Below, one piece after another: positions 1 to 20,636 of a DNA stretch of 64,000 nt. A program made the position numbers and the translations under genes. The stretch is from Bdellovibrio sp. NC01 (lineage in GTDB: Bacteria; Bdellovibrionota; Bdellovibrionia; Bdellovibrionales; Bdellovibrionaceae). The notes beneath the pieces were generated by a model, which made no database searches, was not told the origin of the DNA, and was given only the letters and a program-made list of their open reading frames with translations. How positions within the stretch are numbered: the first letter of the stretch is position 1; every line of letters starts with the position of its first letter. The stretch is from NCBI RefSeq assembly GCF_006874625.1, contig NZ_CP030034.1:1798001-1862000 (forward strand), read 5' to 3'.

Positions 1-345
1 ATCGCAGCACAAAGACACTCGAACAAAGAAGTCGTTACTGCAAGTATCGATCGTTTGGATTTCGTCGCTCCGGTTTATAAAGGCTGGGTTGTGAATCTTC
101 ATGCCAGCGTGAATTACACTTCAAGAACTTCCATGGAAGTGGGTGTACGCGTTGAAGCAGAAAATCCAAAAACAGGGGAGATGTTCCATACAGCCTCTGC
201 CTATACGACATTCGTTGCTTTAGGTTCTAATGGTAAGCCTGTAGAAATTCCTGAGTTAATTCTAGAAACCGACGATCAAAAACGTAGATTCGCAGATGCG
301 AAAAAACGCCGTGAAGATCGTTTGGCGCAAAGACATAAAACTTAG
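1..345 (+). CDS. Acyl-CoA thioesterase (hotdog fold), 3' part
   Basis: The reading frame is open from the first base, so the gene starts upstream of the window and only the last 114 codons are seen. The protein hydrolyses acyl-CoA to free acid and CoA. The visible part is the C-terminal half of a hotdog domain: an alternating beta pattern with NYTSRTSMEVGVRV and a HTASAYTTFVAL strand, followed by a charged, Arg/Lys-rich tail, as in the YciA/BACH thioesterase group. The exact subfamily and acyl-length preference cannot be judged from this fragment. A short hairpin repeat follows the stop codon. Confidence 0.75.
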   Translation: MAAQRHSNKEVVTASIDRLDFVAPVYKGWVVNLHASVNYTSRTSMEVGVRVEAENPKTGEMFHTASAYTTFVALGSNGKPVEIPELILETDDQKRRFADAKKRREDRLAQRHKT

Positions 346-356
346 TTAGAATGTCT

Positions 357-18107: not shown

Positions 18108-18746
18108 ATGAAACAATCAATCTTCACTAAAATGATCTTCGGCGCAATTATGGCGTTATCTCTTGGGATGACTGCATGTGCGAAGAAAGATGGTAGCTCT
18201 GTTCGAGTCGCAGGTCGCGGTGGTGCTGTGAATGCGAATTCGGCTCCTTCAGATTCAGCATCTTGTAACAACTCGGTTGCAGGTACAGGACAATTAAATG
18301 CATCTTCAAATGCAGTTCTGGCGCTGGTATCAGCAACGATCTCGCCACAAAGTTTCGGTACAATCTGCCGCACAAACTTTAGCGCGGCTTTAAAATTTGA
18401 TTCATCAGGTAACATTGTTTCTTCGGGCTCAACAGTATTCATCCAAATCGTGGATAGCTGGGTTGGTCAATCAACGACTGAAGGTAAAACAATCAAACCT
18501 TACGAAATTCAATTCTCTAACGCGAGCAGCGGTGTTTACAATCGCAGTTCAGGTGGTTTCCAAGCTGTATTTGCTGACCAATATGGCAGCTTCGCGATCA
18601 CAGGTACTGTGAGCGGTGCGACGGCATCAGGAACTGTTTTGTTTAACAATAAAGTAGCGGTTGCGGGTTATTCACCAGTTCCAGGTACAAATGACTGGGC
18701 AACATTGGGGTCATTCTCGATCCCAACTTCGGCACTAATGAAGTAA
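18108..18746 (+). CDS. Lipoprotein of unknown function
   Basis: 212 residues with an ideal lipoprotein signal: MKQSIFTKMIF, a hydrophobic stretch and lipobox MTAC, then a charged KKDGS start. The mature part is Ser/Gly/Asn-rich with alternating hydrophobic residues, suggesting an extended beta-sheet domain, and contains a few cysteines. No family was recognised. AGGAGG precedes the ATG. It is followed after 49 bases by a hairpin and the RelA/SpoT-like gene, so it may head that transcript. Confidence 0.75.
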   Translation: MKQSIFTKMIFGAIMALSLGMTACAKKDGSSVRVAGRGGAVNANSAPSDSASCNNSVAGTGQLNASSNAVLALVSATISPQSFGTICRTNFSAALKFDSSGNIVSSGSTVFIQIVDSWVGQSTTEGKTIKPYEIQFSNASSGVYNRSSGGFQAVFADQYGSFAITGTVSGATASGTVLFNNKVAVAGYSPVPGTNDWATLGSFSIPTSALMK

Positions 18747-18795: not shown

Positions 18796-19896
18796 ATGTC
18801 TCAGCGTTTCATATTCGATGCTTCTATTTTGAGTTCAGTTGTTGGTGGTCATTCGGCCATAGATATTCCAAAGCTGAATGTAACGTCTCTTGAAGCCGCT
18901 TCGGCATTCTTGCTTTCCTACGGATTTGATATCTCGCAAAAAACAGATCAAGAAAAACTTGCGCACTACCACCGCCGTGCTTTGGTTTTGATGGTGGAAA
19001 AATTAGGCTTTAACGAAGCTGAAATTCCAGAACAATTCCGCGATCTGAAAGCGTTGGGTGACATCCGTAATCTTTTGATCTTTGCAAGTTCCAGCGATCC
19101 CCAACAAAAAGAGATGCAGCGTTGGGCCTGTGCGATCATTCGCTGCATGCATGTCTTCGTACATGCAGAAAACGACTTGTTCAGTTCTTTTGCTGAAGAG
19201 ATTCAATCGCAAATCTTAACACCGTTTCAAGATTGCATCGTTTACGACGGCAATACGCACAGAACATTCCTGAAAGATCCCAATTCGGGTTTAGATCCAA
19301 TTGAGCTTTTGGGTTTTGAAGTGAAGCCTTTTAAAACATCTTCAAGTACGGTGATTAAACTTCTGGCAAAACCGGATGCGTTAGCGATGAAGATCTTTGA
19401 TAAATTAGGCGTGCGTTTTGTGACTCGCAATTTATTTGATACGTTTCAGGTCGTGCGTTTCTTGATTAAAGAAAACGTGATGAGCTTTCCGCACATCATG
19501 CCAGATCAAAGTTCTAACAATTTGTATCCGGTCGAAGTGTTCATGCAGGTGTGCGACGAATTGGCACAGCGCTTGGATACGCTGGATGAAAAAAGCATTC
19601 AGGCGGCGTTTGATCAAAAACTGCAAGAGCTTGGCGATCAAGTGAAGTTCTTGCGTAAAGAGAACACGTTCTCTGGTACCGATTATCGTTTTATTAAATT
19701 TATCTCTCGTAAATTGATTCATATCAAACCGCATGGTGGAAAAGAGGCGTTTAGTTTCTTCTATCCATTTGAAGTGCAGATCATGGATGAATCAGCCCAT
19801 CAGCGCATTTTGTCGGGACCGTCCGAACATCAAGCCTATAAAGAGCGCCAGCGTGGTGCTGCAAGAAAACGTCTTTTCCCTGAACCTATGAGCTAA
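18796..19896 (+). CDS. Highly divergent RelA/SpoT-fold nucleotidyltransferase-like protein
   Basis: 366 residues. The known family residues of (p)ppGpp synthetases appear in order. K180-x3-S184-x3-K188 matches the ATP-binding K-x3-S-I-x-x-K. D202-x4-R207 matches the catalytic Asp segment DLIxIR. DYRFIK (Tyr297) matches the GYxSIH G-loop. EVQIMD (Glu326) matches ExQIRT, and a following HQAYKE resembles the terminal YK segment. The spacing Asp to Tyr (about 95) and Tyr to Glu (29) is longer than in RelA, and the first Arg of RxK is Pro. There is no HD hydrolase, TGS or ACT domain. The N-terminal 170 residues are helical and unfamiliar. The gene is two bases from plsC. Alarmone or other nucleotidyl activity is inferred. 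Confidence 0.6.
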   Translation: MSQRFIFDASILSSVVGGHSAIDIPKLNVTSLEAASAFLLSYGFDISQKTDQEKLAHYHRRALVLMVEKLGFNEAEIPEQFRDLKALGDIRNLLIFASSSDPQQKEMQRWACAIIRCMHVFVHAENDLFSSFAEEIQSQILTPFQDCIVYDGNTHRTFLKDPNSGLDPIELLGFEVKPFKTSSSTVIKLLAKPDALAMKIFDKLGVRFVTRNLFDTFQVVRFLIKENVMSFPHIMPDQSSNNLYPVEVFMQVCDELAQRLDTLDEKSIQAAFDQKLQELGDQVKFLRKENTFSGTDYRFIKFISRKLIHIKPHGGKEAFSFFYPFEVQIMDESAHQRILSGPSEHQAYKERQRGAARKRLFPEPMS

Positions 19897-19898
19897 TC

Positions 19899-20636
19899 AT
19901 GTTTTTAAAATTACTTTCTTATCCACGTTCTCTTTTGGGTGTTATTCTGCTGCCAATTCATACAGCACTTTGTGCAACAGCAATCATCATCGCCAATATC
20001 CTTTTTAATAATCGCAAATTGGAAGATCACATCGTCGAGTTTTGGACTCGTAATTGCTGTCGTATGTTCGGCGTGAAGGTTGTGACGAAAGGTTTGGAAA
20101 ATCGTCCTCCCGGTGGATTTTTGTACGTGTTTAATCACACAAGTTTCTTCGATATTTTTGCCATGAATGGATGGTTGGGTTCTTTCCGTTTCGGGGCAAA
20201 AATTGAATTATTCAAAATTCCTGTCTTCGGGGCGGGGATGAGACGCGCGGGCATTTTGCCCATCGCACGTGAACGTCGCGAAGAAGTTTTCAAAGTCTAT
20301 CAAGCGGCTGAAGCGCGCATTAAAGCGGGTGAACGTTTTGCGTTGGCGCCTGAAGGCACTCGTCAAAAGACAGAAACTTTGGGCAACTTCAAATCCGGTC
20401 CTTTTATTTTTGCTATCAATGCAAAAGCGCCGATTGTTCCTGTGATCGTTAAGGGGGCTGCGGCGATTATGCCAAAAGGAAATATCATTCCAAATTGGGG
20501 CGTCTGGAGTCGCACAATCACTCTGGAAGTATTGCCGGCGGTAGATGCAACAGCGTATACTATTGAACAGCGACCGCAATTACAGGAACGTGTTCGCCAA
20601 ATGATGTTGCCGTATTTTAAAGGCGATGATTTTTAG
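19899..20636 (+). CDS. plsC: 1-acyl-sn-glycerol-3-phosphate acyltransferase (PlsC-like)
   Basis: 245 residues. It acylates lysophosphatidate (or a related lysolipid) at the inner membrane. An N-terminal hydrophobic helix is followed by motif I NHTSFFD (HxxxxD), a middle GAGMRRAGILPI segment and motif III APEGTR. The family is certain, though other PlsC-superfamily substrates are possible. It begins 2 bases after the stop of the RelA/SpoT-like gene, so the two are co-translated, and an Mpo1-like gene follows. This makes a small lipid-linked gene group. Confidence 0.9.
   Translation: MFLKLLSYPRSLLGVILLPIHTALCATAIIIANILFNNRKLEDHIVEFWTRNCCRMFGVKVVTKGLENRPPGGFLYVFNHTSFFDIFAMNGWLGSFRFGAKIELFKIPVFGAGMRRAGILPIARERREEVFKVYQAAEARIKAGERFALAPEGTRQKTETLGNFKSGPFIFAINAKAPIVPVIVKGAAAIMPKGNIIPNWGVWSRTITLEVLPAVDATAYTIEQRPQLQERVRQMMLPYFKGDDF

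Follow-up and report, generated by a model that had tools for sequence, protein, structure and literature searches.

The TIGR04552 locus

The window, a stretch of 64,000 nucleotides from Bdellovibrio sp. NC01, contains an open reading frame of 366 amino acids (ATG at 18796, stop codon at 19894-19896) that is followed on the same strand by plsC (Table 1). The reading frame and all the motifs quoted in the initial annotation are found at the positions given there, and the two-base distance from plsC is likewise correct, plsC starting at 19899, 2 bp past the stop codon. A putative lipoprotein (18108-18746 of the window), with CAKKDGS after the signal sequence and no Pfam match, precedes the gene; by clustering, this arrangement recurs in 81 of the 113 loci from the Bdellovibrionales.

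Table 1. Features of the TIGR04552 gene and of the adjacent plsC, in window coordinates
Feature	Coordinates	Strand	Basis and remarks
TIGR04552-family gene	18796..19896	+	Open reading frame and translation, NCBIfam matches; 366 aa; RefSeq DOE51_RS08710, Bdellovibrio sp. NC01
N-terminal helical domain, residues ~1-125, family-specific	18796..19170	+	Model helices, isolated fold search, conservation
RelA/SpoT-type synthetase domain, residues ~126-351	19171..19848	+	VIA-align, Foldseek, hhalign
ATP-binding motif K177-P-F-K180-x3-S184-x3-K188	19324..19359	+	Sequence, hhalign, conservation; counterpart of RelA RxKxxxSxxxK
Predicted metal-binding Asp202 and Arg207	19399..19416	+	Sequence, hhalign, conservation; RelA DxxxxR
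Enlarged acceptor-side region, residues 214-282	19435..19641	+	Model secondary structure, conservation
1-base deletion, codon 247, evolved line B	19535..19535	+	PMC9888234 Table 1; position and frame checked
K288-x-N290-x6-Y297-x3-K301-x3-R305	19657..19710	+	hhalign, conservation; equivalent of RelA KxNxYxSxH
E326-x-Q328 ... G341-x3-H345-x2-Y348-K349	19771..19848	+	Alignments, hhalign; gapless with RelA ExQ...ExGxAAHWxYK
plsC, 1-acylglycerol-3-phosphate acyltransferase	19899..20636	+	Pfam Acyltransferase E 5e-25, AGP_acyltrn E 1e-26

Over its full length, the protein belongs to TIGR04552 (E 1e-118) and to the sister model TIGR04562 (E 2e-118), neither of which has a functional name in NCBIfam. 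The match to TIGR04552 reaches 396.5 bits against a curated cut-off of 125 and joins residues 5-361 to positions 1-351 of the 352 of the profile. The sequence had been called otherwise unfamiliar, which is true of its function and not of its cataloguing. In the searchable literature, TIGR04552 is named only in the mutation table of PMC9888234, and none of the searchable papers, a set that most subscription papers and preprints fall outside, describes it as an alarmone synthetase. The main text of the RSH survey of Atkinson 2011 (PMC3153485) does not mention Bdellovibrio, and that of a Tn-seq paper (PMC6561027) names no relevant gene. The family is already catalogued and the superfamily is known.

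Membership of the RelA/SpoT superfamily

The TIGR04552 protein almost certainly belongs to the RelA/SpoT superfamily, as a divergent synthetase type. The profile search suggested in the initial annotation gave a divided answer. Applied to the window protein alone, Pfam RelA_SpoT scores 15.0 bits, below its cut-off of 27, over residues 180-226. On the other hand, single family members are recognized: E values of 1 or less were obtained for 20 of 27, the lowest being 1.1e-8, and 14 of 79 homologues match at E<=0.01 (best 2.6e-5). The comparison of the family with Rel/SAS sequences by hhalign gives P 2.3e-5 over residues 178-353 (alignment A1) and places K180, S184, K188, D202, R207, Y297, E326, Q328, H345 and K349 opposite their Rel counterparts. 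The score is weaker with the larger alignment A2 (P 0.003), probably because A2 lacks the divergent families. When the family profile is run on Rel synthetase domains, each of the four outscores at least 499 of 500 shuffles, and only one of four more divergent SAS-like sequences stands out from its shuffles. The motifs are not due to chance, since their key residues other than Y297 are invariant in the aligned homologues and the profile beats the shuffles on all four Rel domains. The search of PDB sequences with phmmer and the profile returned one marginal but correct match, YwaC/RelQ (E 0.028); the remaining matches, Csn2 and others, are chance.

The AlphaFold model, built from 79 sequences, has a pLDDT of 87.7 and a pTM of 0.80. 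Its Foldseek matches in the PDB are RelP, RelQ, Rel and RelA, with a probability of 1.0, and the first 22 entries of VIA-align are all alarmone synthetases (Z 9.9 to 7.5), with members of the DNA polymerase X family ranking below them (Z <=7.4). The best VIA-align entry, 6fgk_A (Z 9.9), superposes at 3.3 A over 154 residues on 122..351 of the model, and the top matches of the two programs comprise RelP, RelQ/SAS1, Rel_seq, Rel_Mtb and RelA. The identity to the active synthetases among the structural matches is 9-20%. By both programs, the predicted model has the synthetase fold.

The reading of the protein as a divergent RelA/SpoT-type synthetase, made from the sequence at the outset, is consequently supported by the Pfam-matching members, the profile-profile register and the matches of the AlphaFold model. 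The superposition proposed at the same time returns, for this predicted structure, (p)ppGpp synthetases as all the best PDB matches. Neither the loss of the nucleotidyltransferase sheet nor a scattering of the motifs, which would speak against the reading, appears in the PDB matches of the model and the motif register.

Active-site residues

Conservation was followed in 27 (A1) and 79 (A2) aligned homologues and in a set of 27 sequences from about 20 taxonomic families of the phylum. The residues K177, K180, S184, K188, D202, G205, R207, N241, N290, R305, E326, Q328, G341, K349 and Q352 are invariant in all sets. These comprise the catalytic Asp and Glu (D202, E326) and the KxxxSxxxK motif (K180, S184, K188) of the synthetases. 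The Arg of the RelA RxK motif is replaced: position 178 is never Arg, but P, S, A or others, and the invariant Lys177 stands one residue further off than the RxK Arg position. The His of YxSxH is replaced at position 301 by Lys in the order Bdellovibrionales and by Gln elsewhere, with His found once. Residue 297 is Tyr in 47, Phe in 26 and His in six of the A2 sequences. The initial annotation held that every key synthetase position is kept, which is the case for K180, S184, K188, D202, R207 and E326, not for the RxK Arg or the YxSxH His, and Tyr297 is variable. The RxK Arg and the YxSxH His are typical of synthetases without defining them; the predicted fold and the metal and phosphate ligands are in place.

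A further likeness to Rel, overlooked initially, lies in the stretch EVQI...G-x3-H-x2-YKER. The segment EVQIMDESAHQRILSGPSEHQAYKER aligns without gaps with a 26-letter stretch of the Rel from the same genome, and G341, H345, Y348 and K349 are common to both.

Because of the residues kept and replaced, the donor side (ATP and metal) looks nearly complete in the sequence and the acceptor side looks altered. Judged from sequence and model, the protein is probably a stand-alone RelA/SpoT-superfamily alarmone synthetase that would make (p)ppGpp or a close relative. Two points could be raised against this reading: the family-wide change of the RxK Arg and the YxSxH His, and the RelA_SpoT score of the window protein below the cut-off.

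The N-terminal domain and the enlarged acceptor-side region

The protein carries a helical N-terminal addition, as had been proposed, but it measures about 125 residues and not about 170, since the superposition on known synthetases sets in at residue ~122. Its invariant residues are Y42, G43, P78, W110 and H119. Folded alone, the domain reaches a pLDDT of 80; folded and searched alone, it has no convincing fold match, a result that does not establish a new fold. The best VIA match, RbcX, has a Z of 5.6, below the noise level of the tool for helical bundles, and no relationship is claimed. A degenerate HD hydrolase was rejected, the isolated fold search having returned no Rel hydrolase. The lack of a hydrolase domain is confirmed by this search and by profile, and the lack of a regulatory domain by the absence of TGS and ACT profile matches in a protein of 366 aa. 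The architecture is that of a SAS, with a SYNTH domain and no HD hydrolase domain, and not that of a long RSH (HD, SYNTH and TGS/ACT, ~700 aa).

The loops were said to be much longer than in RelA, and the motif spacings bear this out. The D-to-Y spacing is 95 in the window protein against 44 in Rel_seq, and the Y-to-E spacing is 29 against 15 (counted from the sequence, with the residue numbering of Rel_seq for the latter). The D-to-Y loop exceeds that of Rel by about 50 residues. The enlarged region contains the invariant Asn241, and the model shows extra helices in it at 246-257 and at 265-282.

Since two positions of the ATP and acceptor sites are changed family-wide, the acceptor could differ from that of Rel. 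The enzyme would then be an active pyrophosphokinase directed at adenine nucleotides, giving (p)ppApp, at tRNA 3' ends, or at a small metabolite, for instance a lipid-precursor nucleotide, a possibility to which a rather low probability is assigned. Selection would be carried out by the Lys or Gln that replaces His, the extra ~50 residues and the invariant Asn241 and Arg305. In favour of it, almost all members depart from Rel at the acceptor-side residues, which are conserved within the family, a large insertion separates D202 from Y297, and related toxSAS make (pp)pApp or pyrophosphorylate tRNA (PMC11559606). However, most members retain an aromatic residue 297 and K288-x-N290, which probably contact the purine and the phosphates. 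Housekeeping (p)ppGpp synthetases head the structural matches, with the tRNA pyrophosphokinase CapRel at Z 7.0 against 9.9, and a core gene that is passed on vertically and has no antitoxin beside it does not resemble a toxSAS.

Distribution and the canonical Rel

The family scores above the cut-off in 211 of 241 Bdellovibrionota genomes and in none of 14 control genomes, and it is present in 58 of 60 relatives. It occurs in single copy in 53 of the 54 good genomes among the relatives and in 176 of the 189 good genomes of the phylum. Within the genus, the identity to the window protein is ~71-87%; it falls to 48-68% within the family and to 37-49% within the order. This drop with taxonomic distance, together with a tree in which the order stands apart from the remaining families, agrees with vertical descent.

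Of the 189 good genomes, 187 have the canonical Rel. The genomes that have Rel without TIGR04552 are mostly small (1.2 to 2.0 Mb), which fits an accessory second synthetase. The Rel of the source genome (G000:C1:1534647-1536728) has an intact-looking HD domain (HDTVEDT), so a hydrolase would be at hand for any (p)ppGpp made. A second weak RelA_SpoT match in this genome, at C1:198870, looks like chance; the protein is presumably SpoVR-like, a name that was recognized from the sequence and not from a profile match.

Other synthetase-related genes were encountered in the relatives. In one genome of the same genus, the Rel sequence falls into two overlapping frames (G012:C1:1122402-1122735), through a frameshift or a sequencing error. 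Another genome (G028) encodes a divergent RelA_SpoT-domain protein (L174:753-1910, minus strand, E 5e-8) with an apparent signal peptide, possibly an exported synthetase. Some relatives (L169, L171, L172) have, apart from TIGR04552, a SAS-type protein of ~350 aa that is extended at its C-terminus and scores 67-75 bits with RelA_SpoT; the source genome showed no such protein.

Among the 80 matches listed from the contig profile search, every title points to a Bdellovibrionota-type MAG or to an unplaced proteobacterial one, and no plasmid or IMG/VR match to the family was found. One phage record, MW495066.1, is a linear sequence of 274 kb entitled "Microcystis phage MaAM05, complete genome"; its stretch 115546-132610 contains a TIGR04552 gene together with glyS, secDF, mtgA, gatD and acpS. 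With glyS, secDF, mtgA and acpS, this stretch is best taken as bacterial and looks like a mislabelled bacterial contig. In view of this and of the lack of plasmid and IMG/VR matches, a phage or mobile origin of the family was rejected. The MW495066.1 protein branches outside the sampled Bdellovibrionota clades, and the family may therefore extend to another lineage.

These data bear on a toxSAS-like toxin or anti-phage effector, a very improbable identity for the protein. The SAS-type architecture without a hydrolase domain and the presence of CapRel among the structural matches would agree with it. However, there is no PADLOC match, no conserved small antitoxin neighbour was found, the gene is single copy and absent from plasmids, and the sole phage-record match is the doubtful one described above. 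The adjacent antitoxin and the patchy, mobile distribution typical of toxSAS are not seen.

Genomic neighbourhood

Of the 113 loci from the order Bdellovibrionales, 89 have plsC after the gene on the same strand, either directly or with one gene in between, and the two reading frames often share the 4 bases ATGA. Outside the order, plsC was not found beside the gene in the loci of the other families examined. In seven other families (f16, f17, f20, f24, f25, f26 and f27), a pgpA-like gene is head to head with or close to TIGR04552, usually beside cinA and recA; one pgpA gene was profile-matched, the other pgpA, cinA and recA genes being named by eye. Both plsC and pgpA are phospholipid synthesis genes. 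The group pgpA-cinA-recA is an old cluster and may be unrelated, which leaves the phospholipid linkage only a hint.

In several loci outside the order (L194-L199, L202), two co-directed genes lie downstream of TIGR04552. The first kind of protein has ~400 aa, a GTGVAPLxAA motif and no Pfam match. The second kind is an iron-sulphur protein of ~660 aa with 4Fe-4S and 2Fe-2S domains, and BFD-like domains in L196.

The proximity of plsC, overlapping or adjacent in the order, would also suit a RelA/SpoT-fold protein that is catalytically dead or has a regulatory role alone, binding a nucleotide and controlling plsC or another partner. The 9-20% identity to active synthetases and the missing RxK Arg and YxSxH His point in the same direction. 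This explanation is nonetheless quite unlikely: the metal ligands, the phosphate-binding Lys and Ser and the ExQ motif, unneeded by a dead enzyme, are invariant over ~20 families, among them families in which plsC is not linked to the gene.

A frameshift in evolved line B

An experimental-evolution study of Bdellovibrio sp. NC01 lists 20 high-frequency mutations in its Table 1, the TIGR04552 gene included (PMC9888234). The base deleted, at window position 19535, is A in the ancestral allele. The other 19 mutated positions lie outside the window, and the source genome has the ancestral allele at each of them, one being a 6-base string; with 20 of 20 alleles in agreement, the source genome is NC01 or cannot be told apart from it. 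The deletion product has 282 codons, 246 native and 36 altered, and lacks Y297, E326 and the C-terminus. The deletion exceeds 75% in evolved line B. This population was selected under prey shortage and is among those that outlived the ancestor under starvation (PMC9888234). Line B has three other high-frequency mutations (PMC9888234), and hitchhiking of the deletion is therefore possible. The gene is dispensable under the conditions of line B, and its loss is at least not strongly harmful there. For a starvation alarmone enzyme, a loss at more than 75% under prey shortage would be contrary to the naive expectation, a point against that reading. The frameshift of line B also constitutes a ready-made mutant.

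Proposed function

The favoured reading, an alarmone synthetase making (p)ppGpp or a near relative, would operate as follows. The protein would bind ATP and Mg2+ (D202, E326) and most likely transfer the beta,gamma-pyrophosphate to the 3'-hydroxyl of a purine nucleotide. The acceptor would most probably be GDP or GTP, in a stack with the aromatic side chain at position 297. The product, (p)ppGpp or a near relative, could then be degraded by the bifunctional Rel of the same cell. Input sensing or acceptor choice would fall to the helical domain at the N-terminus and to the enlarged loop on the acceptor side. The input might be the state of phospholipid or acyl-chain synthesis, as the linkage to plsC and pgpA hints. 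On the other hand, the confinement of the plsC linkage to one order and the place of pgpA in the pgpA-cinA-recA cluster may count against a lipid input. In a wider and unlikely version, TIGR04552 would form a second alarmone pathway throughout the Bdellovibrionota, with a sensing domain of its own that reports phospholipid or acyl-chain status and a 3'-pyrophosphorylated nucleotide or compound other than (p)ppGpp as product.

The (p)ppGpp synthetases set bacterial growth, starvation survival and antibiotic tolerance. The involvement of (p)ppGpp has been suggested in the switch of Bdellovibrio from hungry attack cells to growth inside prey (PMC2797640). By annotation, only Rel would be suspected among the alarmone enzymes of Bdellovibrio, TIGR04552 being labelled by its family number alone. 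Given a second, near-universal and intact-looking synthetase that is annotated only by number, alarmone studies in these predators may cover half the system.

Comparison with known systems

Among the closest known systems are the Firmicutes RelP and RelQ (SAS2/SAS1), which have a synthetase domain without hydrolase or regulatory domains, are the best structural match and share KxxxSxxxK, DxxxxR, the Tyr and ExQ with the window protein. The identity is nevertheless ~15%, the window protein adds the N-terminal domain of ~125 residues and the acceptor-side insertion of ~50 residues, and it has the RxK Arg and the YxSxH His replaced. Its C-terminal G-x3-H-x2-YK resembles the long Rel instead.

With the long Rel, RelA and SpoT proteins, the window protein has in common the synthetase motifs in register and the gapless C-terminal block (G341, H345, Y348, K349). 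It differs from them by lacking the HD hydrolase, TGS, helical, zinc-finger and ACT domains, and its N-terminal helical part has no match to the HD domain. The toxSAS, CapRel, Tas1 and exported SAS share the stand-alone synthetase fold (7ztb Z 7.0, 8vx3 Z 6.9). In contrast to them, the window gene is a core chromosomal gene for which no conserved antitoxin or immunity partner was found.
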